A DNA stretch of 64,000 bases from positions 62,001 through 126,000 of the forward strand of contig JAKITI010000003.1 of NCBI GenBank assembly GCA_021648145.1, written 5' to 3'. Made by a program: the position numbers and the translations under genes. Below, in pieces: positions 5,587-35,670 of this stretch (its first letter is position 1; the number at the start of each line of letters is the position of its first letter). The notes under the pieces are model-generated. The model did no database searches. It saw only the letters and a program-made list of their open reading frames with translations, and was not told where the DNA came from. The DNA comes from Gammaproteobacteria bacterium (lineage in GTDB: Bacteria > Pseudomonadota > Gammaproteobacteria > JAADGQ01).

Positions 5587-7308
5587 GTGGCTTCAGAATT
5601 AAAAATAAAAATAGCAGGGTATAGCGATATTGGCCCTAAAGATGAAAATCAGGATGATTTTAATTATTGTCATCCAGAGGGTGATGTATTGCGCTTTAAG
5701 GGTGTTGTTGGGGTGATTGCTGATGGCGTGAGCAGTAGTGATTATGGGGGTGAGGCTGCACGCACCAGCGTTAAAAATTTTATTGAAGATTATTACAGCA
5801 CACCCGATAGCTGGACGGTTAAAAAGTCAGCACAAAAAATACTTGTGGCATTGAATTCGTGGTTGTTTCGTCAAGGGCAAGATGAAAGCAGTACGATGAA
5901 AGGGTTAGTGACGACTTTTTCATCCATCGTATTCAAATCGACACAGGCTTATCTGTTTCATATTGGTGATTCTCGCATCTATCGTTTGCGTGACGGTGAA
6001 TTGGAGCAATTAACACGCGATCACATGGCAGATATGGGCGGAGGTCGCACCTATTTGAGTCGCGCTTTGGGTGTGGATAATCATCTTGAGGTGGATTGTC
6101 GTGGAATTGATCTGCGGGTTAAAGATGTTTTTCTTCTGACTACAGATGGGATTCATGATTTTGTTGACCATGATTTAATATGTAGAATCGTATCAGAAGC
6201 GACTCCTGTCGCTGAGCGGGCACAAAAAATTGTAGAAAAAGCGCTGGAAAGTGAAACACCCGATAATGTCACTGCACTCATTCTTGAAGTGGAAAGTTTG
6301 CCGGAGGAGACAGAGGAAGAAGTTTTTCAAAAATTAACAAAATTGCCATTTCCGCCTGACTTACAGCCAGGAATGATTATTGATGGTTTTAAAATTTTAA
6401 AAATTATCGCGGAGAGTGCCAGAGGGCAGGTTTATTTAGCTGAAGATACTGCAAATCAAACTAAAATCGTTTTAAAAACACCTTCAGTTAACTATGAGGA
6501 TGATCCCACCTATTTGAATGGTTTTATTCAAGAGCAGTGGGTGGGCGCGCGGGTTAATCATCCCGGAGTGATGAAGCCTTATATCTCAGGGCGGCACAGA
6601 ACGTGTCTCTATTTTAAAACTGAATATATTGAAGGGCAAAATCTTCAAGACTGGATCAAAGAAAATAATGCTCCGGCGTTGTCTGAAGTTCGGTCGATCG
6701 TTGAGCAGATCGTTCAGGCGTTGCGTGCTTTTCATCGTCAGGATATGGTGCATCAGGATTTGAAGCCAGATAACATCATGATTGATACTTCAGGCCAAGT
6801 AAAAATTATTGATTTTGGCTCAACCAAAGTAGCAGGAATTACAGAAATTGCTTCAGTGATTAATCCAGATCATCCGATGGGAACGCTCAACTATACTGCA
6901 CCTGAATATATGAAGAATGAGCAGGGAACGAATCGGTCTGATATTTTTTCATTAGGTGTTATTGTTTATGAGATGTTAACGGGTCACTTGCCGTACAAAG
7001 AAAAAAATATTGAGAGTTTCACGCTGCGTAGTTATAGCGATATGAAATATATTCCGGCACGTAAGTGGCGCGCTGATATTCCTGTATGGGTCGATGTTGC
7101 GCTTAAAAAGGCAGTCGCTCCAAACCCTGCAGATCGTTATAGCTTGCTTTCAGAGTTTTTATACGATTTTAAAACACCTAAGAGGGGAGTTGATGGCGCT
7201 AATTTTCAGCCACTACTTCAGCGTAATCCTGTGCTCGTGTGGCAGGGTATTGCAGCGGGTTGTTTTGTACTGTGGTTAGTGACTTTGTGGTGGTTTTTGT
7301 TGATGTAG
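5587..7308 (+). CDS. PP2C phosphatase-serine/threonine kinase fusion, membrane-anchored
   Basis: The 573-residue protein joins three parts. Residues about 8-255 are a PP2C-type phosphatase, with 'DENQDD' at 19-24, 'VIADGVSSS', 'HIGDSR' and 'TTDGIHDFVD'. Residues about 265-530 are an Hanks-type kinase, with catalytic HQDLKPDN at 389-396, DFG at 409-411 and 'TAPEY'. A C-terminal transmembrane helix follows at about 545-572. The glycine loop is degenerate (AESARGQVY), yet the catalytic residues are present. The start is GTG at 5587 after AAGGAGG. In Pseudomonas a similar fusion sits beside nasA and nirBD, so a role in nitrate assimilation control is likely but not proven. Confidence 0.88.
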   Translation: MASELKIKIAGYSDIGPKDENQDDFNYCHPEGDVLRFKGVVGVIADGVSSSDYGGEAARTSVKNFIEDYYSTPDSWTVKKSAQKILVALNSWLFRQGQDESSTMKGLVTTFSSIVFKSTQAYLFHIGDSRIYRLRDGELEQLTRDHMADMGGGRTYLSRALGVDNHLEVDCRGIDLRVKDVFLLTTDGIHDFVDHDLICRIVSEATPVAERAQKIVEKALESETPDNVTALILEVESLPEETEEEVFQKLTKLPFPPDLQPGMIIDGFKILKIIAESARGQVYLAEDTANQTKIVLKTPSVNYEDDPTYLNGFIQEQWVGARVNHPGVMKPYISGRHRTCLYFKTEYIEGQNLQDWIKENNAPALSEVRSIVEQIVQALRAFHRQDMVHQDLKPDNIMIDTSGQVKIIDFGSTKVAGITEIASVINPDHPMGTLNYTAPEYMKNEQGTNRSDIFSLGVIVYEMLTGHLPYKEKNIESFTLRSYSDMKYIPARKWRADIPVWVDVALKKAVAPNPADRYSLLSEFLYDFKTPKRGVDGANFQPLLQRNPVLVWQGIAAGCFVLWLVTLWWFLLM

Positions 7309-10306: not shown

Positions 10307-11568
10307 TAGATGTCCTGTTCTTTGATGTCTAGCAGTTCCCGTGCGGCTTGCAGTAGTTCAGGGCGGCCATCAAAACCGGCTTGGCGCATTGATGTGCTGG
10401 CAGGGTGAATAAGTTTGTTAGTCAGGGTGCGCAAGCTGTTTTGTAATACTTTTTCAGGATTTTCCCCTTTTTGTATTAGGCGCAGCGCTTTTGCTAATTC
10501 GATCTCTTTGAGCTGATCGGCTGACTCTCGGTAGGAACGTATTGTTGCGACTGCATCCAGTGAGCGCAGCCAACCCATAAAGTGGCTCACTTCAGTGGCG
10601 ATAATTTCTTCGGCTTGTTTTGCGGCTTCCTGGCGTGATTTTAACCCTTCTTCGATAATGTCTTGAAGGTCATCAACTGTATATAAGTAAACGTCATCCA
10701 GCTTCCCGACTTCAGGCTCGATATCACGTGGCACGGCGATATCGACCATTAATATGGGGCGATGCTTTCGAACCTTGATTGCACGTTCAACCGCTCCTTT
10801 ACCTAAAATTGGAAGTTGGCTGGCGGTGGATGAAATTACGATATCTGCTTCAGCAAGGTGCGCTGGAATTTCAGCCAATGTGATAGCATAACCATTAAAT
10901 TGTTCGGCTAAATTACGTGCACGCTCGACCGTTCGGTTGGCAACAATGATTCTGCCAATGCCGTTTTCATTTAAATGGCGTGCTGTAAGTTCAATTGTTT
11001 CACCCGCACCAATCAATAGTGCGGTATGCTTTTCAAATCCGGAGAATATCTGTTTGGCCAGATTAACGGCGGCAAAGGCAACAGACACAGGGCTGGAGCC
11101 GATGGCAGTATCACTGCGTACCTGTTTTGCAACAGAGAAGGTGTGTTGGAATAGTCGTCCGAGCAGTGTTCCAATTGAGCCACTTTGAACTGCGGTTGTA
11201 TAGGCTGCTTTCACTTGTCCTAATATCTGTGGTTCACCCAAGACAAGTGAATCCAGGCCGCAACTGACGCGTAGCAAATGTTGCACAGCATATTGGTTCG
11301 GGTGTGTGTATAGATGCGGCGCTATCTCGTCAGGTTTGATATTATGGTAATGACTGAACCAGTCGATAATAATATCTGTCTTAGCGGAATCGTAACAACA
11401 AACAATTTCCGTGCGGTTGCAGGTGGAGACAATAACGGCTTCACTGATTTCGGAGTGAGTTGTCAATTCCCGTAAAGCTGAGGGCACATGTTCGGGAGGG
11501 AATGCCACCCGTTCTCGAATGTCAACAGGGGCTGTTTTGTGATTAACGCCAAGGGCAAGTAAAGGCAC
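10306..11568 (-). CDS. hemA: Glutamyl-tRNA reductase
   Basis: The 420-residue enzyme reduces glutamyl-tRNA to glutamate-1-semialdehyde, the first committed step of the C5 tetrapyrrole pathway. The nucleophilic cysteine is Cys50 in 'VSTCNRTE', after '[16 protein letters not shown]'. A nucleotide-binding motif '[16 protein letters not shown]' follows mid-protein. The start is GTG at 11566-11568; the nearest ATG is out of frame. It is divergent from the TPR lipoprotein-lolB operon, as in Pseudomonas, and leads the hemA-prfA-moxR run. Confidence 0.97.
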
Positions 11569-11697
11569 AACTCATAACCTTGAATCAGTGATTAAATGGG
11601 GCTTTACCTAAATGAATAAAGCAATAAATTCTGAGCAGTATAGCAGAGGTTGATTGACGAAGTAATGCTGTAAAGTGAAAACCATGAACTAGGGTTA

Positions 11698-13428
11698 ATG
11701 GGGATGGGAATGAAAGTTTGTAGTCAGTTTTTTTTAGTTTTTACTCTGCTTTTGATGCTGGGTTGTGTGTCTACGCCTCATCGTGGGGATGAAAAGTCAG
11801 TCGTTCTTTTGGATGCACATGCATCGCAAAGTGATGTGGTGCCGACACGATACGAAAAAAAGATTTATCAAGTGTTGTTAGCGGAAACAGCCTATCAGCG
11901 AGGGCAATTTCAACAGGCTGTTGATGGGTATCTTTCGGCTGCATTGGGGAGTCGCGATCCCGCGCTGGTAGAGCGTGCGTGTTATATGGCACTCAATGCG
12001 GATCGGCAAGACGCAGGTTTGCAAATGGCTCAATATTGGGTGAGCCTTGAACCTGAGAGCGTGAAGGCTCGATATTTTTTAGCGCTATTTTACATGCGAA
12101 AGGGGCAGCTCAAGTTGGTGCAAGAGCAGCTTGAGCAGACTTTATCTATAGATGTTGATGGCAATGCGCTCGGTTTTTTTGGTGTGGCCGAAATTTTGGG
12201 AGAGTTAGGAGGGCACGATGCCCTGTTTGTCATGCAGAAAGTGGTGGCTGACTACCCTGATAATGTTAATGCCTTGGTGGCGTTAAGTCAGTTGGCACTA
12301 AGGGTCGGCGAGTTTGATGAAGCGCTGTCTTCGGTAACTTATGCACGGAGTTTGATGCCTGATAGAGTTGATGCTTTACTATTGCAAATTCAGATATTAC
12401 AGGCTCGTGGTGATGGTGGTATTGCTATTGACCATTTGGCGCATGCAATTGATCAACATCCAGCTGATGTGACGTTACGTCAATGGTATGCACAGTTACT
12501 GGAGGCTTCAGGGCGCGAGGAGGAGGCCTTTGTCCAGTTTAAAATAGTTGAATCTCAATCGCCGATGGATGGTGATGCCATTTTTTCTCTAGGGGTGTTG
12601 GCATTTAATGATTCCCGCTGGGCATTGGCTCAAACTTATATGCAGCGATTGCTGGATATAGGGGGGTTCAATAATGAAGCAAACTACTATTTAGGTTGGC
12701 TTGCAGAGCTTGAAGGTACATATGCGGAAGCAATTGAATTTTATTCTTCAGTTAATTTGGAAGGTGCTTATTTTGATGCGCAAATTCGTTTGGCTTATAA
12801 CACAGCCAAGCTTGGAGACTTGAATGTTGCAAGAGGTTATCTTGAATCAATAGAGCCTGAGGGTGTTGTCGAGGTCGAGCGTGTTTTTATTGCTCAGGGA
12901 GAGTTGTTGCGTGATGCCCGGCAATTTGAAGAGGCGATTGAGGTGTATAGTCGGGGGCTCCAGAAGTTACCTGGTAATCATGAGCTACTGTATGCCCGCG
13001 CAATGGTGGCGGAAGCGATTGGACATAACGAGCAGATGAAGCAGGATTTGGAGGCAATAATTGCTTCCGATCCAAAAAGTACAAATGCATTGAATGCGCT
13101 GGGTTATGCTTTGGTGGAGCACGGTGGAGATATTGATAAAGCGGAAGGATATTTGTTACGGGCTTTAGCGCTGGATCCGCAAAGTTATTATATTATTGAT
13201 AGTGTGGGGTGGTTATATTATCGTCGAGGTGAATATGCCAAGGCTATTGAGTATTTGAATCGTGCCTACAATTTAGGAAAAGATGCTGAGGTCGCGGCAC
13301 ACTTAGGTGAAGTGTTATGGGTGATCGGTGATTATGAAGGGGCAAAAGATATTTGGGATCGGGCACTAAAAGATGCACCTGGACATAAAGCTTTATTAGG
13401 AGTTGTTGAGCGCTTTTCTGCGCAATAA
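11698..13428 (+). CDS. TPR-repeat outer-membrane lipoprotein
   Basis: The 576-residue protein has a lipoprotein signal peptide with lipobox L-G-C, and Val after the cysteine suggests outer-membrane sorting. The rest is a long helical array of tetratricopeptide repeats, clearest at the C-terminus ('ALGYALVEHGGDIDKAEGYL', 'WLYYRRGEYAKAIEYLNRAY'). The homologous gene lies before lolB in Pseudomonas. The true start is one of three in-frame ATGs at 11698, 11704 and 11710; the last has GGGGA five bases upstream. It overlaps lolB by 26 bases. A scaffold role is inferred. Confidence 0.85.
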   Translation: MGMGMKVCSQFFLVFTLLLMLGCVSTPHRGDEKSVVLLDAHASQSDVVPTRYEKKIYQVLLAETAYQRGQFQQAVDGYLSAALGSRDPALVERACYMALNADRQDAGLQMAQYWVSLEPESVKARYFLALFYMRKGQLKLVQEQLEQTLSIDVDGNALGFFGVAEILGELGGHDALFVMQKVVADYPDNVNALVALSQLALRVGEFDEALSSVTYARSLMPDRVDALLLQIQILQARGDGGIAIDHLAHAIDQHPADVTLRQWYAQLLEASGREEEAFVQFKIVESQSPMDGDAIFSLGVLAFNDSRWALAQTYMQRLLDIGGFNNEANYYLGWLAELEGTYAEAIEFYSSVNLEGAYFDAQIRLAYNTAKLGDLNVARGYLESIEPEGVVEVERVFIAQGELLRDARQFEEAIEVYSRGLQKLPGNHELLYARAMVAEAIGHNEQMKQDLEAIIASDPKSTNALNALGYALVEHGGDIDKAEGYLLRALALDPQSYYIIDSVGWLYYRRGEYAKAIEYLNRAYNLGKDAEVAAHLGEVLWVIGDYEGAKDIWDRALKDAPGHKALLGVVERFSAQ

Positions 13429-20172: not shown

Positions 20173-20188
20173 TGTGATTGATGTCACA
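20173..20188. promoter_or_regulatory. CRP-binding site, consensus
   Basis: TGTGA-TTGATG-TCACA is a full match to the CRP consensus TGTGA-N6-TCACA, with symmetric flanking T and A. It lies 92 bases before the ATG at 20281. A TTGACT at 20217-20222 could be a -35, which would place the site near -71. A CRP gene is present at 40.6 kb. Confidence 0.7.
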
Positions 20189-25059: not shown

Positions 25060-26799
25060 ATGAAGGTTATTTCTCGGCGTAAGCCAATCGAGAGCGCCCA
25101 TGCTTTACCTGATGGTATTCATCCAGTTTTGGCACGGGTTTATGCGTCACGTGATCTTGAGTCATCACAGGCTTTAGAGAATAAACTGAAGCTGTTATTA
25201 CCTTTTGATTCGTTAAAAGGTATAGAGGCCGCTGTCACTTTATTGCAGCAGGCGTTACAGGCTCAGTGGCGTATTCTGGTTGTTGCTGATTTTGATACTG
25301 ATGGCGCTACGAGTTGCGCTGTTGCCGTACGTGCTTTACGTATGTTGGGATTCCAGCATGTGAATTATGTTGTTCCCAGGCGCTTTGACACGGGTTATGG
25401 ATTAACACCCGAATTAATCAGCGCCGATGGTATACCGCCCACTGATCTCATTATTACTGTAGACAATGGAATCAGCAGTATTTCTGGTACTTCATTTGCC
25501 AAGGGTAAAGGGATAAGAGTCTTAATTACTGATCACCATATTCAAGGTGATACGCTGCCTGATGCTGATGCTATAGTTAATCCCAATCAAATTGGGGATG
25601 AGTTTCCAAGTAAAAATTTGGCGGGTGTTGGGGTTATTTTTTATGTGATGCTCGCTTTTCGTTCACACCTTCGTCATCAAGGTTGGTTTAAAAAACAAAA
25701 TATTACAGCGCCTAACCTGGGGCAGTTACTGGATCTAGTCGCACTTGGAACAGTCGCCGATATGGTGTCGCTTGACCATAATAATCGCATATTGGTTGCT
25801 CAAGGGTTAGCCAGAATGCGCAGTGGTACAGGCTCGGCGGGGATCTATGCATTACTTGAAGTGAGTGGCCGCCGTTTTGAGCAGGTGGTAGCCTCTGATA
25901 TGGGCTATGCTGTTGCTCCCAGACTGAATGCAGCTGGACGTTTGAATGATATGTCGCTGGGCATTGAGTGCCTGCTTTGCGATCAAGCGGATGAAGCGAA
26001 TGAAATAGCTGGTCGTCTAAATACAATGAATTTGGAACGGCGCAAAATCGAAGCTGAAATGCGCATTGATGCATTGCGTGATCTGGATGACTTACAGCTC
26101 AATGACGAAAGCAATGAGCTGCCCTTCGGTATTGCCTTGTACAATAAAAAATGGCACCAAGGCATTGTTGGTGTGATCGCATCGCGTATTAAGGAGCTGC
26201 ATCATCGTCCTGTTATTGTTTTTGCACCGGGTCAACCTGGTGAGATCAAAGGCTCTGCTCGCTCTATATCAGGGTTGCAAGTTCGAGATGTGATTGCTCA
26301 CATTGATGCAGCTCATCCCGGTTTAATTAAAAAGTTCGGTGGACATGCAATGGCGGCAGGTCTGACGATGGATGCTGATGGATTTGAGCTGTTCCGTGAT
26401 GAATTTGATTACCAAGTGCGCAGACAGCTAAAAGGTGAAGACCTTAAAAGCATCATCTGGAGTGATGGCGAGTTGCAGGAGTATGATATGGATATGCAGT
26501 TAGCTGAAACTCTACGCAGTGCCAGCCCATGGGGGCAAGGATTTCCCGAGCCGGTGTTTGATGGCGTATTTCAATTAGTGAGCCGGCGAGTTGTGGGTGA
26601 AAAGCATTTGAAGCTTCTGCTTAAAGTGCCAGGAGCCAATGAAAAGTTACTAGATGCCATTGCTTTTAATACGGATGATAGCGTATTGCCTGTGGGTGCT
26701 ACCGAGGCACGTTTAGCATATCGTTTGGATATCAACCGATTTCGTGGTCAAACAAGTATTCAGATGGTGGCTCTGCATATTGAAGCCATCGTGAATTAA
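25060..26799 (+). CDS. recJ: Single-stranded-DNA-specific exonuclease RecJ
   Basis: The 579-residue 5'-3' exonuclease acts in recombination and mismatch repair. The DHH-family motifs are visible: DFDTDG at 77-82, DNG at 135-137 and DHH at 158-160. The DHHA1-domain segment 'IKKFGGHAMAAGL' and the C-terminal OB fold follow. Length is usual for RecJ. Its short spacing to the preceding gene suggests cotranscription. Confidence 0.96.
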   Translation: MKVISRRKPIESAHALPDGIHPVLARVYASRDLESSQALENKLKLLLPFDSLKGIEAAVTLLQQALQAQWRILVVADFDTDGATSCAVAVRALRMLGFQHVNYVVPRRFDTGYGLTPELISADGIPPTDLIITVDNGISSISGTSFAKGKGIRVLITDHHIQGDTLPDADAIVNPNQIGDEFPSKNLAGVGVIFYVMLAFRSHLRHQGWFKKQNITAPNLGQLLDLVALGTVADMVSLDHNNRILVAQGLARMRSGTGSAGIYALLEVSGRRFEQVVASDMGYAVAPRLNAAGRLNDMSLGIECLLCDQADEANEIAGRLNTMNLERRKIEAEMRIDALRDLDDLQLNDESNELPFGIALYNKKWHQGIVGVIASRIKELHHRPVIVFAPGQPGEIKGSARSISGLQVRDVIAHIDAAHPGLIKKFGGHAMAAGLTMDADGFELFRDEFDYQVRRQLKGEDLKSIIWSDGELQEYDMDMQLAETLRSASPWGQGFPEPVFDGVFQLVSRRVVGEKHLKLLLKVPGANEKLLDAIAFNTDDSVLPVGATEARLAYRLDINRFRGQTSIQMVALHIEAIVN

Positions 26800-26840
26800 A
26801 GATAGTTATTTTTATAAATTTACAGTTTGAGGATTGCTTG

Positions 26841-28829
26841 ATGTTGTTATATGTTATTAAGCGAGGATGCATCGTTTTTTTTATAGGATTATTAAGTGCC
26901 TGTGGTTCTGGGTCAACAGATCCCGACCCGCAGCCAACCAATGAAAAAGTGATTGTTTCAGCCGCTGCGCCTGAAATGCTAAAAACAGAAGCTCAATCGG
27001 GTATTAATTTACTGAGCTGGAGTGCACAGCCCGATGTGACTTACACACTTTATCATCGCTTAATTAGTGAGCCTTCATCTTCCTGGCTGGAAGTCGAATC
27101 GGGTTTGACAGCAATCACTTATGAACATTCACTTGTAAACTCTCATCTTTATGAATATGCCGTGAGTGCAGTTAATAGTGGCGGAGAAAGTCCAAAGCAA
27201 TTCGAAACGACAGTTATCCCCCAGCTAAAGATTAATAGTTTATCTAAACCTGAAGGTGACGAAGGCGTTACAACCCCTTTTGAATTTGATGTCACGTTGA
27301 ATCGAGCTGCAATGCAAGCAATCACAGTCAGTTATAAAACTGTAATGGATAGTGCTACAGAGGATGATTATTTGCCAGTTAGCGATGGTGAAATCACATT
27401 TTCAGCAGGTAATACTCGCACATCTATTTCGATTTCTATCATTGGAGATTCTGCTGTTGAAAATGATGAAAATTTCTATATTCAGCTGAGTGATACAAAT
27501 ACTGTGGTTTTGGAGCAGGCTGAGGTAACAGTCACTATTTTGAATGATGATGAACCGCCTGTGCCTGTGGTGACTCGACTTGAGCCACTCTCTGTGACAG
27601 TGAATACAGAAGTTGATTTCACAGTAACTGGTCAGTTCTTAACCGAGCAGATTCGTCTGGAAATTGAAGATTGTTCTTCGGCCATTTTGTTGGTGGATGG
27701 AGGTGAGGGACAACAGAAATTTCGCTGCACTATATCGAAAGCAGGACTAAAATCTGCCAAAGTACTATCCACCGAAAATGAAGTTTTAAAAGCTTTTGAG
27801 ATTGATGTGATACCTGCGACAGATATTTTAGCAACAGGGGGCATTACTCAACCGATCGCAGATGGAAATCATGAGGGTGATATTGAGATAGCTGCGAACG
27901 CGATGGATACCGATGGCTTAAAAAAAGTCAGTATAAATTTTAAATCATCAGATAAAAAAGTCATATTGTGTAGCAATGATTGCACTGGAAACAGTGCTTC
28001 TTGGGCGACAACAATTAACCCTTCGGCTTATTACGATGCAACCAGTGACTCTATTACTCTGGAATTATGGGTTTTGGATATGAATGATAATAATGTTCAG
28101 GTCGATGAAGTGACTTTTCAGTGGCGGCCTGTTTCACAAAGTTATAGTTTGCGATTAAATGATACGGGTGTTACCAAATTCTTTAATGAAAATAGTGAAG
28201 TGAGCGAAGAGCCGCTGGACTTCTCCGGCCAGGATGCCAGTTTTGGTCGTGATGTTGTGGCCTCATACAATGAAGATGGCCACGCAGGGTTCAGCTTTAC
28301 CAAAATTGATAGCAATGGTGATGATCTACCTGCTTCCGCACTGGAGTGGAGTTGCGTTCGAGATAATGTCACTAACCTGATCTGGGAGTCGAAAACAAAT
28401 GACGGCGGACCTCATGATAAAGGTGAGCGTTTTTCCTGGTGGAAAGATGATGATGCATCAAGAGGCTATGAAGACAGGTTTAAAGAGTGTAATAATTACA
28501 GTAGTGACTCAAAAAACTCATATTGCAATACTGAAGCTTATATCATTCGTGTGAATTCAGCAGGGCTTTGTGGTTTGAACCAGTGGCGGTTACCAATGAA
28601 GCGAGAGTTGGTGTCGCTTATAAATAGTGAGCAAATTGCTCCCGCAATTGATGTCGACTGGTTTCCAAATACAGCTTCTGATTTTTATTGGGCACGTCAA
28701 CCCAGTGCAGGTATTCCTGGTAGTGGTTGGGACCTTTATTCTTGGGGAGTTAATTTTAATGAAGGCTTTGTTGACGGTGTATCATGGAGTCAGGCAGCCG
28801 CAGTACGCTTAGTCCATTCCGTGCAATAA
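26841..28829 (+). CDS. Outer-membrane lipoprotein with Calx-beta and DUF1566-type domains
   Basis: The 662-residue lipoprotein (lipobox L-S-A-C, Gly at +2) begins at the ATG at 26841, eight bases after GAGG. It has a fibronectin III-like region at about 35-130 ('INLLSWSAQPDVTYTLYHRL'), a Calx-beta domain at about 135-235 ('YLPVSDGEITFSAGNTRTSI', 'VENDENFYIQLSD'), an Ig-like middle and a C-terminal DUF1566/Lcl-type domain ('DNVTNLIWESKTNDGGPHDK', 'LCGLNQWRLPMKREL'). Such proteins are surface-exposed and often adhesive. The next gene carries the same C-terminal domain. Confidence 0.75.
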   Translation: MLLYVIKRGCIVFFIGLLSACGSGSTDPDPQPTNEKVIVSAAAPEMLKTEAQSGINLLSWSAQPDVTYTLYHRLISEPSSSWLEVESGLTAITYEHSLVNSHLYEYAVSAVNSGGESPKQFETTVIPQLKINSLSKPEGDEGVTTPFEFDVTLNRAAMQAITVSYKTVMDSATEDDYLPVSDGEITFSAGNTRTSISISIIGDSAVENDENFYIQLSDTNTVVLEQAEVTVTILNDDEPPVPVVTRLEPLSVTVNTEVDFTVTGQFLTEQIRLEIEDCSSAILLVDGGEGQQKFRCTISKAGLKSAKVLSTENEVLKAFEIDVIPATDILATGGITQPIADGNHEGDIEIAANAMDTDGLKKVSINFKSSDKKVILCSNDCTGNSASWATTINPSAYYDATSDSITLELWVLDMNDNNVQVDEVTFQWRPVSQSYSLRLNDTGVTKFFNENSEVSEEPLDFSGQDASFGRDVVASYNEDGHAGFSFTKIDSNGDDLPASALEWSCVRDNVTNLIWESKTNDGGPHDKGERFSWWKDDDASRGYEDRFKECNNYSSDSKNSYCNTEAYIIRVNSAGLCGLNQWRLPMKRELVSLINSEQIAPAIDVDWFPNTASDFYWARQPSAGIPGSGWDLYSWGVNFNEGFVDGVSWSQAAAVRLVHSVQ

Positions 28830-28844
28830 TATTTTGGTGATCAA

Positions 28845-29384
28845 ATGAAAAAGATTCAATTAATTTCTCTGTTTGTATTATTGGCTTTTTGCTCGAGTGT
28901 GTTTGCCGCTGTTTGTCAGGATGACATTCCTGAAACTGCCCCTGAAAGTGCATTTGATGACCACGAAAATGGGTTGGTCACGGATAAACGAACAGGTTTG
29001 ATATGGCGTAAATGTACAGAAGGGCAGTCAGGAGAGACGTGTTCTGAAGGTGTGAGAGGTGACTCATTTTTTACTTGGCAGGAGGCGCTTCAGCATGTAA
29101 AAGCAGTCAATGCTAATAGTGGGGATGGTTATAGTGACTGGCGTCTTCCTAATAAAAAAGAGTTAGAAACGATTATAGAAAACAGTTGCGTTGCCCCATC
29201 AAGCAATGAAAAACTTTACCTTTTTCCGTCTAGATCCTTTTACGCTGATGCAAGATATTGGACATCAACCACCTCAGCGAGTGATCCGTCTGCTGCCTGG
29301 GTTGTTCTATTTCAATACGGTGGAATTATTACAGCAAAAAAAGATAGTAGATTTTTCATACGCTTGGTTCGGGGCGGTCAGTAG
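28845..29384 (+). CDS. Secreted DUF1566/Lcl-domain protein
   Basis: The 179-residue protein has a signal peptide (cleavage near VFA-AV) and one DUF1566-type domain: 'GLVTDKRTGLIWRKCTEG', 'YSDWRLPNKKELETIIEN' and 'YWTSTTSASDP'. It contains four cysteines that could form disulfides. It begins 15 bases after the lipoprotein gene, which has the same domain type, so the pair is probably an operon of related surface proteins. Function unknown. Confidence 0.8.
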   Translation: MKKIQLISLFVLLAFCSSVFAAVCQDDIPETAPESAFDDHENGLVTDKRTGLIWRKCTEGQSGETCSEGVRGDSFFTWQEALQHVKAVNANSGDGYSDWRLPNKKELETIIENSCVAPSSNEKLYLFPSRSFYADARYWTSTTSASDPSAAWVVLFQYGGIITAKKDSRFFIRLVRGGQ

Positions 29385-29429: not shown

Positions 29430-29538
29430 ATGGAAATGCGCATGATGTTGAAATTGTTGATTACCATTAAAAATCCCCTCAAAATTTTGAAAGGCCTTTT
29501 GTAAATCTTCAATATTACGGATTGGCTTAATATTCATT

Positions 29539-31119
29539 TCAACCCCCGATCGTCCCATTCACAATGGGTTGAAAAGCGGTCAGGCTATCCAGCATGGCTG
29601 AATTTCCCAAGCCATGTCCCATAAACTTGGAAGAAAACTGACCAACTTCACCGTGTAAGGCCATGTAGTTAAGGGCAACGGTTTCTACCAGCAGGTTGAC
29701 GTTATTGGCCGCTGGGCTGGAAGATGTTTCAACTGAACCATCGGCACGGAAAAATCCGATCTGTTGTGTATTGCCAAGCAGCTGGGGGCGGCCATTGGGG
29801 TTGTACACAAGAAAAAATGAAGCCGCAGTCGATGAACTGTCAGTTGTCCATACGCCTTTGCCTTGGCCATCATCTGAAGTATCAATAGAGCCGTTACTGG
29901 AAACAGAGCCATCACTGAATACATAAAGCATCAACGGCACTCCAAGGCGAGCCGCATACTCTAGGCAAGCTCCCATGCAGCGTCCCGCACGTAAGTCACG
30001 AATTTCACCGACGGCGCGATCACCTGTGTGGTAGTCATAACCTCCTATGGTGATTGTGCCAGCACCGGCATAGCCGTTCATGACCAGTTTCATGACGGAG
30101 GCTGTTTTCCTGAATTCACGGTCGCCATCATAATCCGCCTGTGTGAAGATTGATTGGGCACCCACAATATTAGCATCAAGGCTGGGGTTTAGTGCTGTAG
30201 GGTCACCATAGCGATCCACCAGGTCAGCACTTTTAACGTAGCCACATTTCATTAGGTCTTTGACGATCTCATCTGTGGTGACTTTTCCTGTTTTCATTGC
30301 ACTGATGCGCTGAATGGATTCCATGACGGCAACAGCATCTTCCTGGTTGAGTAAACCCACCAGCTTTCCAGTATCGACCAGCCCGGTCACATCGCTGGGT
30401 CGATCTACTTTGGTGGGGCGTTTGCCAAGATCGATCATTGAATCTGGAGCAACAGAATTACCACCAGAGTCGGTACTTCGTGAGCCGATGAGTGTCAGCA
30501 GTTCACCGTCAGCTCCAGCTTTATTGATGGCATACATCGGATTGTGTGGATTATTACCGGTATCATTTTCAGAGCGTGCAGGGATCACCGCACCATTAAT
30601 TTTCTCTCGGGTGGCAGTTGATGTTTTTTCTAAAATACCACGTAAAAATTGACTTTTTGAATGGAAGGCAAGTCCAAGGTCAGTATTAATGAAATTAGAA
30701 CCAATCACATCTGCATCAACATCAATTTGTGGCGGGAGCATATCGCCTGGAATGCCCATTTTGCTATAACCGGCAGTGGTGAGAAAATCAAGTTGCCCAC
30801 CTTGTTTTCCGACCAACACATTAGAGCCACCTATGCTGGCACCACCGGCCAGATCAAAGCCGATAAACGGGATTTTTCCAGCGCCCTGAACAGTGATTCC
30901 ACAACTATCTCTCAGTGCATTCAAATCAGCAGAAAGAGCGGCATGTGCAGGTTGAGCGAACAGGCTGAGAATGGATGAACCCATGACGGCACCTGTTCCA
31001 AGGGCAAGGCCGCGTCCGAGAAAATCGCGCCGATTGATTGGGCGACCATGCTCTGGTAAATGAAGCGGAGCATCGGGGTTTTTTATATTTTTAAAATTTT
31101 TATATTTAAAGCGAATCAT
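29539..31119 (-). CDS. Tat-exported protein, DUF1501-like
   Basis: The 526-residue protein has a twin-arginine signal, NRRDFLGRG at 29-37, followed by a hydrophobic stretch and AHA-AL cleavage. The body recalls DUF1501 proteins: 'GGYDYHTGDRAVGEIRDLRA', 'MYVFSDGSVSSNGS'-type segments and 'GLGNSAMLDSL' near the end. DUF1501 proteins belong to the alkaline-phosphatase-like superfamily, but I do not see a metal site I can vouch for. It is the last gene of a three-gene operon with two c-type cytochromes, 24 bases after the LamG gene. Function unknown. Confidence 0.65.
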   Translation of the reverse strand: MIRFKYKNFKNIKNPDAPLHLPEHGRPINRRDFLGRGLALGTGAVMGSSILSLFAQPAHAALSADLNALRDSCGITVQGAGKIPFIGFDLAGGASIGGSNVLVGKQGGQLDFLTTAGYSKMGIPGDMLPPQIDVDADVIGSNFINTDLGLAFHSKSQFLRGILEKTSTATREKINGAVIPARSENDTGNNPHNPMYAINKAGADGELLTLIGSRSTDSGGNSVAPDSMIDLGKRPTKVDRPSDVTGLVDTGKLVGLLNQEDAVAVMESIQRISAMKTGKVTTDEIVKDLMKCGYVKSADLVDRYGDPTALNPSLDANIVGAQSIFTQADYDGDREFRKTASVMKLVMNGYAGAGTITIGGYDYHTGDRAVGEIRDLRAGRCMGACLEYAARLGVPLMLYVFSDGSVSSNGSIDTSDDGQGKGVWTTDSSSTAASFFLVYNPNGRPQLLGNTQQIGFFRADGSVETSSSPAANNVNLLVETVALNYMALHGEVGQFSSKFMGHGLGNSAMLDSLTAFQPIVNGTIGG

Positions 31120-31143
31120 GGCCGTTTTCCTCTGCTTCTATTT

Positions 31144-33633
31144 CTATTGTATTAACGTGGTGGCGCTGCCCAATACCGCGGCACATGTTGCTTTAGCGAT
31201 CGTTCGAGTACGACCTTCGGTGCAAGCGTCATCCTCACAAGGCGTATTCAATAAGCGATTAATAAGACTATTAAGCTCATCTTTTACCTCTGGTCGTTCA
31301 GGCTGACTGCTTAAATTCGTTCCCATCATTTTATCGAGTAGTGGATTGAGTAATGGGTCACGTGAGGTAAAAGCAGTTGTGACGGGTGCGGTAAAATTAA
31401 AATCTGGAAAATAACTACTGCGTTTGTCAATGTCTTCAATTAGTACATTGCAATACTCAATGGCCAGTTGTGAAATAGCCACTTGATGCGCAGAAAGAAA
31501 GCCATTCACGAGTTCTGTAGACGGCAGTTGTTGTTTTATTGTTTCAAATGTCGCTTGTACATCACTTTGGGTCGGACTCACTGTGGTGAGTGTCGCCATC
31601 GTTGCATTAACTTCATCAAAAGTGCGCATTCCGATTTCAGCGGGAGCTGGAGTGATAACAGGAGGAAGTCCTGGCTGTAATGGCGCAGGTTCAGTAAATA
31701 CATTGTTTTTTGTACCGAGTTGCTCAAAGGTCAGAAAAAACTCATCTGAATCAACGCCTTTTTCAAGAGGAATGGTGGTGCCCATTTTAGCGAGCGGCTG
31801 GCCGTTAATGGTGTACTCTGATGAAGAGAGTGTGATATCCATACGAGCATACGCCTGGCCTATTTTGGCTTCTTTACCATTAATACCAATACGTAACCCT
31901 TTGAGTGGAATATTATCGGGTTGAACATCATTCAAATTGACGAATGTGGGGTTGTTAAACAGGTAGCTGTAGTTATCAAATTGACTGACTCCAAGCATCA
32001 CATAGCTCTCAGGCAAGTCAATATGATCACTTATATTGAAGAGTAAAAAGAATTTTTGCCCTACGCCCGCTTCAAAATTTTGAGTGATCTGAGTTTGATT
32101 CAGTGCTCGATTGTGAATGGCTACCAGTCGTAATTTTCCTTGCCAAGGACGGTTTTTAGAGACTTCATTGCCCAGCACAAAGGCGTAGCTGTCATCCCAG
32201 TCGGATAAATTTCCTGCGGTGGTTTCATCAGCGTCATCAGTAAACACACCATTGACGTAAATACGCCGTCCATTGACAGGGTCAAATGTGACGACAACAT
32301 GTTGCAACGTCGCTTGTAAATCTTCGTCATTAGTGACGAGTGCAGGCTCGCCATTGGCATCAGTCGTACTGCTGCGATGATTGAAGTTATAATGGTAAAG
32401 AACTTGTCCAAGTGAAAAATTACGCGCGTTTTCACCGGCAGAGTAACTGATAATGGACGCAGGTCCTTCTTGAGTCACATTGGCAGGAGTGACCCAGGCT
32501 TCCATCGAGTATTCGCCTGTGGCTTGAATTTGATCGCTGAGTTTTTTGCTGGGTGTGGTTAAGCCTTGTGCTTTGCTCTCAGGAGTGATGAATTCGATGC
32601 CCCAGCCACCAACCCATTTAAAATCACTGTTTTCCTGACCCTCCAGCTTTAAATTGAGCGCTGGCTCAACACCGCTGGTATCGTAGATATTATTGCCTTG
32701 GCCAGCTTTGAATTCATAGAGTGCAATAAGATCTCTCTCATATCGGCTGCCACCGCTGGCAACAATGCCATTGCCAATATTAAGTGCTTTGCTGACGACA
32801 AGTTCAGTTGCAACGGGTGTGGCTGAAATACCTTGAGAAAAAGCGGTAATCGCAGCTTCGAGCTCGTTTGCGTCATCTTGACAATCTTGACTCCAGCAGT
32901 TGTGGAATTCATCGCGTAATCGCACAACAAGCCTAGAGTTTGCCGGGTTATCAAGGTCTATTTTTTGTGTGCTTGTAACAGCTTCATAAGCGGTATTGAT
33001 ATCACCGTCTGAAAAAAATGGGGCTTGAGGCGTTTTAGCTGAATCAACATGACATTCAGCGCAGTGATCCACAAGCAGAGTGTGAATGGTTGAAAAACTA
33101 CTGGGGTCACTGGGGAAGCTTTTGCTTGCTCCCACATTTTTAATAGCAGGGGCTTTCAGTTCAATTTGCTTACTGCTTGCACCGCTCGAACCCCCTGCCC
33201 AGTCTTCGATCCAGCCGGTCATAATTGTCGCGCAAGTGCTATAAGCGCTATCATTGCTATCACTCTTAAGCCAGCACTGATGACCATTTGCGACTTTGGT
33301 GACGAGCAGTGAATCCGCAGGTGATTCGAGATTAACCACTTTAAGTGCTTCTCTATAAGCCGTATTAATATTTTCCTGATGAGCAAAGGCAGGTGCCTGT
33401 ACACCTTCGACATGACACTGCCCACAACGGTTATTGCCTTGAATATTTTCCCATAAGTTTGTTTGAAATGCGCGAACATCTTCATTGACCGCTGGAGTCC
33501 CGCTATAGGTGATTATAGCTGTGTTTTCGGCGTATTGATCAGGAAGAGCATCAACGTCAACACCTCCACAGCCAGTTAAAACGGCAAGAGGTAAGAGTAG
33601 GGTTGTTAACCATAATTTATTCATTTTATTCAC
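31144..33633 (-). CDS. Diheme LamG-domain lipoprotein
   Basis: The 829-residue lipoprotein (Cys22, Gly at +2, outer membrane) opens with two copies of a monoheme domain: CGQCH 70-74 and CAECH 191-195. Each is followed by an 'INTAY' segment and a conserved 'HQCW'/'HNCW' plus a second cysteine. Next is a concanavalin-like LamG domain at about 295-510 ('DLIALYEFKAGQGNNIYDTS', 'QLRLVAIHNRALNQTQI'-type). A beta-rich and helical tail follows. This recalls planctomycete PSCyt1-type proteins, which combine heme and LamG or PA14 domains. The start overlaps the upstream gene by eight bases. Confidence 0.75.
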   Translation of the reverse strand: MNKMNKLWLTTLLLPLAVLTGCGGVDVDALPDQYAENTAIITYSGTPAVNEDVRAFQTNLWENIQGNNRCGQCHVEGVQAPAFAHQENINTAYREALKVVNLESPADSLLVTKVANGHQCWLKSDSNDSAYSTCATIMTGWIEDWAGGSSGASSKQIELKAPAIKNVGASKSFPSDPSSFSTIHTLLVDHCAECHVDSAKTPQAPFFSDGDINTAYEAVTSTQKIDLDNPANSRLVVRLRDEFHNCWSQDCQDDANELEAAITAFSQGISATPVATELVVSKALNIGNGIVASGGSRYERDLIALYEFKAGQGNNIYDTSGVEPALNLKLEGQENSDFKWVGGWGIEFITPESKAQGLTTPSKKLSDQIQATGEYSMEAWVTPANVTQEGPASIISYSAGENARNFSLGQVLYHYNFNHRSSTTDANGEPALVTNDEDLQATLQHVVVTFDPVNGRRIYVNGVFTDDADETTAGNLSDWDDSYAFVLGNEVSKNRPWQGKLRLVAIHNRALNQTQITQNFEAGVGQKFFLLFNISDHIDLPESYVMLGVSQFDNYSYLFNNPTFVNLNDVQPDNIPLKGLRIGINGKEAKIGQAYARMDITLSSSEYTINGQPLAKMGTTIPLEKGVDSDEFFLTFEQLGTKNNVFTEPAPLQPGLPPVITPAPAEIGMRTFDEVNATMATLTTVSPTQSDVQATFETIKQQLPSTELVNGFLSAHQVAISQLAIEYCNVLIEDIDKRSSYFPDFNFTAPVTTAFTSRDPLLNPLLDKMMGTNLSSQPERPEVKDELNSLINRLLNTPCEDDACTEGRTRTIAKATCAAVLGSATTLIQ

Positions 33634-34825
33634 CCATACAATAAATAGCAGAGTCGATGAACACCTGCTTCAGGTTATAATTATTAGTTTTAAAGGCCTG
33701 AGTCATTTCAGCAACTTTATCAAAGTCAGAGTTATTGCTAGGCACTCGAAAGCAGGTGGTTTTAAATACTTTTTCGACCTGACAGTTTGCAAATGCGTCG
33801 CTATTGGCTAACTCTTGCCCCATTGAGCTTGCACCTTTGCCTTTGCCTTCGCCGCTACCCCAGCCAAGAAAGGCATTAGGACCTTTGCGCCAATAATTGT
33901 CCCAGCGATCGTCAAGCGTTTCGTAACCGTATTTAAAATTACTGGAATTAATCAGGTATTTTTTTTGTACTTCGCCAGGTGTATAGACCAGGCTTCCATT
34001 GAGCCCTTCCGGATCGCTTTGATTATCGTAACGAAAATCATAATAAGCATAGGCTTGAGCCAAAGGTTCCATTCCAGCATGACAGCCCAGGCAGGAGTTC
34101 ATAAATATACGACTGTCTCCACCCGGGCTGCGGCTCACATCCTGACGAACGCGGTCACTTGCTCGGGTGTTATCTTTAATCTGTTCCAGATCGGTACAGA
34201 GGTGATTGAGCAGAGTGAAGCGAAACATGGCGCGGTTGGTGCCATCAATAAAAAAAGCTTGGGCTGCGGCGCGTGTTGTCATGATACCGGCAGTGCCTTC
34301 TTCGGGCAGCCCCGTTGTGCTTGATTGAGCAGCACGAATCAAATTTTCTTTAAGATCAATGCCTTGGTCTTCTAAAGCTTTGTAATGCTCGTTATTGCTA
34401 ACTGAATAGGCGGGAAGCCCTAAATCTGGCTTTCCTATATATAGAATATCGGCAGAGAGTAATTGGTTGAAAGGGACATCATCTCGCACCATTCCGATGA
34501 CTGTGGCGGTGTAGTCATTAAGGGGGGCGAATATTGTTTGTGCCTCATTAGTCCAGGGCGTGACGAAATTTTTAAGTGTTACGTTATAAAATGCGCTATT
34601 TTTTACAGCAATATCAGCGGCTTCCTTCACATTGCCTTCACTGATTTTTGTCTCCATTTCATTGAGTACGGCAGCCGTGGGAGGAATGCCCGTCAGTCGA
34701 TCATGCAGGCGCTTGGCCTGTTCTCGGGGGGCTGCTTGTACTGAGGTGATCAGTAATGTCATCAAGCATGTCGTGAGTATGAGTGCTGTTGTGAATTTTT
34801 TGGCGGAGCTTTTAATATTGCTCAT
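33626..34825 (-). CDS. Secreted monoheme c-type protein of unknown family
   Basis: The 399-residue protein has a signal peptide (cleavage near VQA-AP), a mainly helical body and one heme site, CLGCHAGM, at 245-249. Three further cysteines lie near the C-terminus. It is the first gene of the operon with the LamG diheme lipoprotein and the Tat-exported protein. A CRP-like site lies 75-90 bases upstream. I do not recognise the family beyond a distant resemblance to DUF1588/DUF1592-type planctomycete cytochromes. Confidence 0.65.
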   Translation of the reverse strand: MSNIKSSAKKFTTALILTTCLMTLLITSVQAAPREQAKRLHDRLTGIPPTAAVLNEMETKISEGNVKEAADIAVKNSAFYNVTLKNFVTPWTNEAQTIFAPLNDYTATVIGMVRDDVPFNQLLSADILYIGKPDLGLPAYSVSNNEHYKALEDQGIDLKENLIRAAQSSTTGLPEEGTAGIMTTRAAAQAFFIDGTNRAMFRFTLLNHLCTDLEQIKDNTRASDRVRQDVSRSPGGDSRIFMNSCLGCHAGMEPLAQAYAYYDFRYDNQSDPEGLNGSLVYTPGEVQKKYLINSSNFKYGYETLDDRWDNYWRKGPNAFLGWGSGEGKGKGASSMGQELANSDAFANCQVEKVFKTTCFRVPSNNSDFDKVAEMTQAFKTNNYNLKQVFIDSAIYCMGE

Positions 34826-34899: not shown

Positions 34900-34915
34900 C
34901 GTGAATTCAGTCACA
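34900..34915. promoter_or_regulatory. CRP-like site before the cytochrome/LamG operon
   Basis: CGTGA-ATTCAG-TCACA matches the CRP consensus at nine of ten positions. It lies 75 bases upstream of the minus-strand start at 34825, a normal activator position. Confidence 0.5.
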
Positions 34916-34935: not shown

Positions 34936-34971
34936 AAAAAAGGTGATGCTCGATTGAGCATCACCTTTTTT
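34936..34971. terminator. Bidirectional terminator
   Basis: AAAAAAGGTGATGCTC pairs perfectly with GAGCATCACCTTTTTT around a GATT loop, giving a 16-base stem with A-run and T-run. It ends the minus-strand OmpA-like gene and insulates the cytochrome operon promoter. Confidence 0.95.
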
Positions 34972-34992: not shown

Positions 34993-35670
34993 TTATTCTG
35001 TAATGGGTGAGATTGAGACTTCAACTCGACGGTTTTGAGCGCGTGTGGCTTCGGTATTGTTGTCGGTAACGGGTTTTGATTCACCAGAACCAGTGGCTGC
35101 TAATCGTTCTTCAACAATGCCTTTGTTACGTAAATATTCGGCCACGGCCACGGCTCGTTTTTCTGAGAGATGAAGGTTGAAATCATCTGACCCCGTGTTG
35201 TCTGTATGACCTTCAACGGTGACGAGGGTCGATTCGTATTCATTCAGTACCATTACAACGCCATCAAGAGCGCTGTAAAACTCTGGGCTTAAACTGGCGC
35301 TGCCAGATGCAAAGGTAATATTACTTGGCATGTTCAGCATGATATCGTCTCCATTACGAGTGACGCTTACACCGCTGCCTGCAAGTTTTTCTTTTAACTT
35401 TGCTTCCTGAACATCCATGTAATAGCCCACGCCCCCCCCTGTAATGGCTCCGATTCCAGCACCTTTCAGCGCTCTTTCTTTACGTTTTTCTTTATCCGCC
35501 GTTGCATAACCTAATAGGGCACCCGCTGTTGCACCGATCAGCGCACCTGTGGTGGATTTTGCAGTCTGTTTTTCACCTGTATACGGGTTGATTGTTGAGC
35601 AGCCTGCCAAAATAATGACAGAAGCGCACAGCGTTCCAGTGATGATGGGCTTGATTTTTTTTGGAAACAT
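34993..35670 (-). CDS. OmpA-family lipoprotein (YiaD-like)
   Basis: The 225-residue lipoprotein (lipobox L-A-G-C, Ser at +2) has a glycine-zipper segment at about 42-85 ('TTGALIGATAGALLGYATAD', 'GAGIGAITGGGVGYYMD'). A C-terminal OmpA-like peptidoglycan-binding domain follows, with 'TVEGHTDNTGSDDFNLHLSE' and 'RAQNRRVEVSI'. It links the outer membrane to the cell wall. The length and order match YiaD/YfiB-like proteins. Confidence 0.9.
   Translation of the reverse strand: MFPKKIKPIITGTLCASVIILAGCSTINPYTGEKQTAKSTTGALIGATAGALLGYATADKEKRKERALKGAGIGAITGGGVGYYMDVQEAKLKEKLAGSGVSVTRNGDDIMLNMPSNITFASGSASLSPEFYSALDGVVMVLNEYESTLVTVEGHTDNTGSDDFNLHLSEKRAVAVAEYLRNKGIVEERLAATGSGESKPVTDNNTEATRAQNRRVEVSISPITE

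Follow-up and report, generated by a model that had tools for sequence, protein, structure and literature searches.

The balance of the evidence slightly favors the reading that three adjacent genes in the window, i.e., the 64,000-nucleotide stretch of a gammaproteobacterial contig analyzed here, represent the cytochrome/alkaline-phosphatase-fold arm of an envelope redox system that is strongly conserved, and are related, in split form, to the planctomycete PSCyt-LamG/DUF1501 pairs; for the complete system we infer a thiol-flavin-heme relay. The parts of the system, their linkage, and their co-occurrence were established by sequence comparison. The original prediction treated the trio as a stand-alone unit, but it turned out to be one arm of a larger cluster of roughly nine genes, which had been missed because the two arms are separated in the genus to which the window belongs.

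The three open reading frames of the trio lie at the coordinates originally given, all on the minus strand. P3 (33626..34825) encodes a Sec-exported monoheme protein of 399 aa, P2 (31144..33633, GTG start) a diheme LamG lipoprotein of 829 aa, and P1 (29539..31119) a Tat-exported, DUF1501-like protein of 526 aa with a predicted alkaline-phosphatase-superfamily fold. The reported gap of 24 bases between P2 and P1 is correct, whereas the 8-base overlap of P3 and P2 depends on the start codon chosen: it holds for the GTG at 33633, but with the in-frame ATG at 33624 the two genes would stand 1 base apart. Since P3 and P2 are mostly separated by 1-4 bases in homologous loci of relatives, this ATG fits their spacing better and may be the true start of P2. 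A terminator-like hairpin (29475..29494, minus strand) is located 45 bases past the P1 stop codon, and a strong hairpin (34936..34971, minus strand; z -7.6) follows the upstream neighbor, an OmpA-family gene (34993-35670), and parts it from the trio. With hairpins on both flanks, the trio looks like a separate transcription unit. Two adjoining genes for Lcl_C-domain proteins, one with Calx-beta, are found on the opposite strand between recJ and the trio (26838-29384).

The trio had also been credited with a CRP-like site. Such a palindrome, CGTGAATTCAGTCACA, exists at 34900..34915 (no strand assigned) and agrees with the consensus at 9 of 10 positions. A score of at least 9 of 10 was reached in the same intergenic region in 9/72 relatives, compared to about 1.4% of mononucleotide shuffles, which is a modest excess. 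Across the window, however, sites of the same stringency occur close to chance (3 found, 2.8 expected), and the site carries little weight as evidence. A perfect CRP-type palindrome, TGTGATTGATGTCACA, is present at window positions 20173-20188.

The assignment of one heme to P3 and two to P2 is borne out in their homologues, with a single CxxCH in 72/72 P3 proteins and two CxxCH in 76 of the 77 P2 proteins. The motif of P3 is CLGCH (34079..34093, minus strand; residues 245-249), with Cys and His invariant in the alignment. P2 carries the lipobox LTGC (LTG/C; 33568..33579, minus strand), whose lipidated Cys22 is likewise invariant, and continues with two similar N-terminal monoheme modules, each consisting of a CxxCH followed by a conserved HxCW in the alignment. 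In the window, the two heme motifs are CGQCH (33412..33426, minus strand; residues 70-74) and CAECH (33049..33063, minus strand; residues 191-195). The modules are followed by a LamG domain (Laminin_G_3; 32086..32544, minus strand; residues 364-516; Pfam E 1.4e-21) and by a C-terminal region that resembles no Pfam family. Laminin_G_3 was found in 26/26 P2 homologues scanned; the domain sits in P2 and not in P3. P3 has a single CxxCH, while P2 and, as conserved motifs, the HZS-alpha-like protein described below have two each, so that none of these proteins counts as a multiheme cytochrome.

P3 shows weak similarity to PSCyt2 at residues 27-126 and to PSD2 at residues 330-388, and in the window's protein both matches stay below the family cut-offs (15.7 vs 29.8 bits for PSCyt2, 19.6 vs 25.8 bits for PSD2). 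Among 26 P3 homologues, matches at E up to 0.5, i.e., weak or better, were obtained to PSD2 in 25 (best E 2.4e-6), to PSCyt3 in 11, and to PSCyt2 in 6. Structural comparison of the P3 model returned only Z scores under 4, to unrelated helical proteins. Searches of PDB sequences with P3 and P1, by single sequence and by profile, gave nothing useful, and NCBIfam recognized no family in the trio besides the Tat signal.

This Tat signal belongs to P1 (TIGR01409, 17.9 bits, cut-off 16.7) and contains the motif NRRDFL (31018..31035, minus strand). As a Tat-exported protein, P1 is probably folded before export. It is the most conserved of the proteins aligned, with a mean column identity of 72% (42 homologues) compared to 60% for P2 and 62% for P3. 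None of the 42 homologues matches Pfam DUF1501 (PF07394) at any threshold used, and we therefore call P1 DUF1501-like and not a member of this family. The relationship itself is supported by hhalign, which gave P1 a probability of 67% in global and 46% in local mode against the DUF1501 profile, with control profiles at 2% or less. The profile alignment brings P1 and DUF1501 proteins into register in the Tat region and the first strand, places GGYDYH on GGWDTH, and sets the FSDGS region against the SEFGR region; GGYDYH (30028..30045, minus strand) thus aligns with the DUF1501 signature and conforms to its general form GG[WYF]D[TY]H. The prediction of a Tat-exported DUF1501-like protein is thereby supported in both its motif and its profile relationship. 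DUF1552 was weighed as well, because PSCyt3-type and PSCyt2-type genes have different partner families (PMC5615132), and was ruled out by profile comparison (0.5% or less).

The AlphaFold model of P1 (pTM 0.73, mean pLDDT 66.6) contains long low-confidence stretches. Its top structural matches in Foldseek and VIA-align are, judged by their titles, enzymes of the alkaline-phosphatase superfamily, the best with Z 12.3 over 240 residues. By prediction, P1 thus adopts a fold of this superfamily and is most like DUF1501. As regards the two-metal site and nucleophile typical of this superfamily, D89, D362, H364, D403, and D427 are invariant in the alignment, whereas the histidine of the DUF1501 DHG motif is unmatched in the profile alignment, which makes a hydrolytic activity of P1 doubtful. 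Contig C4 of the window's genome carries a decayed, mosaic copy of P1 at 25808-25974 (about 5770-5974 in locus L109), consisting of three short pieces with 81-86% nucleotide identity and gaps between them; its sequence suggests a lost second copy.

The likeness of the trio to planctomycete cytochrome/DUF1501 pairs was correctly recognized in the original prediction and reaches further than stated there, with P3 being PSCyt/PSD2-like, P2 carrying LamG, and P1 being DUF1501-like. That the trio has different domains is consequently not simply so, given weak PSD2 similarity in 25/26 P3 homologues, LamG in P2, and the DUF1501-like nature of P1. The planctomycete-type PSCyt families are of unknown function, and LamG (pfam13385) is a carbohydrate-binding module in some of these proteins (PMC5615132).

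P1 is present in 18/94 relatives searched, and a profile search detected it in 51/370 gammaproteobacterial genomes and 43/272 genera, so that the system occurs in about one in six gammaproteobacterial genera sampled. It had been proposed to check whether the trio co-occurs elsewhere. P3, P2, and P1 follow each other in the same order and on the same strand in 77 of 80 named loci, which include Shewanella, Colwellia, Alteromonas, Paraglaciecola, Microbulbifer, Ferrimonas, Thiodiazotropha, and Sedimenticola; the remaining three loci lie at contig ends. A phylum-level search gave matches in Gammaproteobacteria only, a result from which we claim no restriction to this class since the share of other classes in the sample is not shown. 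One locus titled Polarisedimenticolaceae (L033), by name not Gammaproteobacteria, contains the cluster, with a P1 identity of 73%; a naming or binning issue may be the cause.

Clustering of neighboring open reading frames revealed a second arm, which lies upstream of P3 and is divergent from the trio, in 73/80 loci. It encodes an HZS-alpha-like diheme lipoprotein, two outer-membrane barrels, the first of which has an SH3 part, a TlpA-like thioredoxin, and, recorded where the flank of the locus extends far enough, DUF4266 and DUF3570. In HZS-alpha, an unusual axial Tyr ligand lies just after the first CxxCH; in the alignment of the HZS-alpha-like protein, both CxxCH are invariant, and no Tyr is conserved within ten residues past the first. 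The protein has approximately 890 aa and an HZS_alpha middle domain, and it aligns with solved hydrazine synthase alpha (5c2v) at E 3.6e-14, with propeller, middle domain, and C-terminal region being collinear. Among the seven loci without an adjoining HZS-alpha-like gene, six are truncated by the end of their contig, and one from the window's genus (L024) has the gene on another contig.

The window's genome has a complete second arm on contig C3 (136665-143865), at a distance of about 45 kb to the trio and beyond the window, with the DUF3570, DUF4266, and thioredoxin-like genes together at 10665-12560 of locus L108. Two open reading frames (170 and 180 aa; L108 12738-13776) between the TlpA-like and barrel genes are absent from this position in the relatives examined. 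The arms are on different contigs in a sister species and adjacent in another genus of the family, which indicates that they became separated in the window's genus and that both were kept. ApbE is encoded near the trio in 27/80 relatives; in the window's genome it is beside neither arm, and three ApbE genes are located elsewhere. A TPR/ExbB/ExbD set comes next in the Thiodiazotropha, Sedimenticola, and Microbulbifer loci, and one genome (G315) has the TPR genes, the second arm, the trio, and ApbE within a single 19.5-kb stretch. The window's genome has TPR clusters at C17:3766-11213 and C12:43805-49114, one with TonB-like, ExbD, ExbD, and ExbB genes and the other with gene c14, that match the genes flanking the system in Thiodiazotropha and Microbulbifer.

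The two arms also co-occur across genomes. The HZS-alpha-like profile matched 54 of the 370 gammaproteobacterial genomes; 48 contained both this protein and P1, three only P1, six only the HZS-alpha-like protein, and 313 neither (Fisher p about 8e-50, kinship ignored). Both are present in 27 families. In one genome with the HZS-alpha-like protein and without P1 (G058), the barrel, DUF3570, and TPR genes are still present.

ApbE can flavinylate DUF3570 at a [ST]GA[ST] motif, and DUF3570 genes cluster with those for thioredoxin-like and DUF4266 proteins (PMC8238504). In the clusters described here, only 16/59 DUF3570 proteins keep the motif, while 43/59, including that of the window's genome, lack it and mostly have SSAS or TSAS in the site region. 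The motif is more common where ApbE is near (10/21 compared to 6/38; p 0.014, kinship ignored). This patchy distribution suggests that the flavin on DUF3570 is lineage-dependent, i.e., likely in some lineages and doubtful in the window's genome. A parallel locus of the same genome (C1:131152-137131; L159 5153-11132) combines a DUF1501 gene above the Pfam cut-off and a gene for a 548-aa partner without Pfam match with ApbE, a DUF3570 gene with TGAT, a DUF4266-like peptide ending in GGGCGCN, and a TlpA-like gene. Two such encounters of DUF1501-type proteins with the DUF3570 module in a single genome support the idea that they are functionally linked.

Taken as an envelope redox system, the two arms could pass electrons, in either direction, between a periplasmic thiol pool (the TlpA-like protein and the CxC of DUF4266) and outer-membrane hemes. 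The flavin of DUF3570, in lineages keeping the motif, or another cofactor would serve as intermediate. At the outer membrane, a placement that we infer from the lipobox and the barrel domains, the relay would have its other end in the hemes of three proteins (P2, P3, and the HZS-alpha-like protein). LamG might hold a polymer or glycan, and P1 would be a separately folded exported partner whose alkaline-phosphatase-fold pocket could accommodate substrate or metal chemistry. The trio was originally proposed to form a surface redox or polymer-modifying complex. The conserved unit, its cofactors, and its export signals fit the first half of this proposal, whereas for polymer modification LamG is the sole hint, and it hints at polymer binding. 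More tentatively, and short of what we would call probable, the cluster might be an undescribed outer-membrane electron conduit made of low-heme cytochromes, barrels, and a thiol/flavin input without multiheme chains, through which marine and symbiotic Gammaproteobacteria trade electrons with a substrate bound to a surface or polymer.

TlpA/Sco proteins and ApbE-type NosX serve copper enzymes in maturation. By analogy, the cluster could mature or repair P1 as an exported metalloprotein rather than act in respiration, with the thioredoxin and the CxC peptide handling metal or disulfides and the hemes setting the redox state. The TlpA-like protein and DUF4266 do share one arm, and P1, Tat-exported and probably pre-folded, is the best conserved of the aligned proteins. 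However, three heme-motif proteins and two barrels exceed the needs of known maturation systems, and a Sco-type family is absent among the conserved neighbors scanned, so that we regard this explanation as unlikely.

Equally, we would not expect the cluster to process polysaccharides, with LamG binding a glycan, P1 cleaving a sulfate or phosphate ester, and the cytochromes supplying electrons to an oxidative step. LamG is found in all P2 proteins scanned, the fold of P1 is common to sulfatases and phosphodiesterases, and PSCyt genes of Verrucomicrobia adjoin sulfatases and have LamG (PMC5615132), but neither a glycoside hydrolase nor a classical sulfatase was recognized among the conserved neighbors, and the unmatched DHG histidine speaks against hydrolysis by P1. 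Least likely of the three rivals, to the point of being hardly credible, is hydrazine-synthase-type nitrogen chemistry with the HZS-alpha-like protein as catalyst: the HZS-alpha middle domain and both CxxCH are conserved, but the Tyr is not, the hosts are not anammox bacteria, and divergent hzs-like genes are taken as a broader family (PMC10732223).

For the envelope redox system favored here, we found no account in the open-access literature searched, in agreement with the original view that the trio is undescribed. DUF1501, LamG, and a cytochrome were not found together in this literature, although a description elsewhere is possible, and its source for DUF3570/DUF4266 (PMC8238504) mentions neither DUF1501 nor DUF1585 nor hydrazine synthase in the main text. 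The combined two-arm system thus appears to be new, whereas its planctomycete-type and DUF3570/DUF4266 parts are already known singly. Two sets of genes long noted without an assigned function, the planctomycete-type cytochrome/DUF1501 families and the DUF3570/DUF4266 module, are joined here in one conserved cluster, and homologues of hydrazine synthase alpha are placed in a consistent gene context beyond anammox bacteria. The hosts range from uncultured symbionts of lucinid clams and tubeworms to the culturable Shewanella, Colwellia, Alteromonas, Paraglaciecola, Microbulbifer, and Ferrimonas, in which the function of both families can be tested by ordinary gene removal.

Among known systems, the planctomycete and verrucomicrobial PSCyt genes (PMC5615132) share with the trio PSCyt and PSD-type domains, LamG, and a conserved adjoining partner gene. 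In the gammaproteobacterial version, however, two genes share the cytochrome part, with P2 contributing two hemes and LamG and P3 the PSCyt/PSD2-like regions; the partner P1 has diverged beyond recognition by Pfam DUF1501, and the HZS-alpha-like/DUF3570 arm accompanies the trio. DUF1800-DUF1501 pairs (e.g., PMC5122149) likewise consist of a Tat-exported DUF1501 protein and a conserved neighbor but have neither hemes nor LamG; the DUF1501 gene of the parallel locus on contig C1, with its unclassified partner, is comparable to them. The second arm resembles DUF3570-DUF4266-thioredoxin-ApbE clusters (PMC8238504) in having DUF3570, DUF4266 with a C-terminal CxC, a thioredoxin-like protein, and, in some loci, ApbE, and differs from them by added heme proteins and by the absence of [ST]GA[ST] from most DUF3570 proteins. 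Its HZS-alpha-like protein is collinear with hydrazine synthase alpha (5c2v) in the propeller, the middle domain, the two CxxCH, and the C-terminal segment; unlike the latter, it is a lipoprotein of non-anammox hosts, has other partners, and shows no conservation of a Tyr behind its first CxxCH. Finally, the combination of heme lipoproteins with outer-membrane barrels and a probable electron transfer across the outer membrane is reminiscent of MtrCAB and other porin-multiheme conduits, whereas the new system has 1-2 hemes per protein together with extra thiol and DUF3570 parts.
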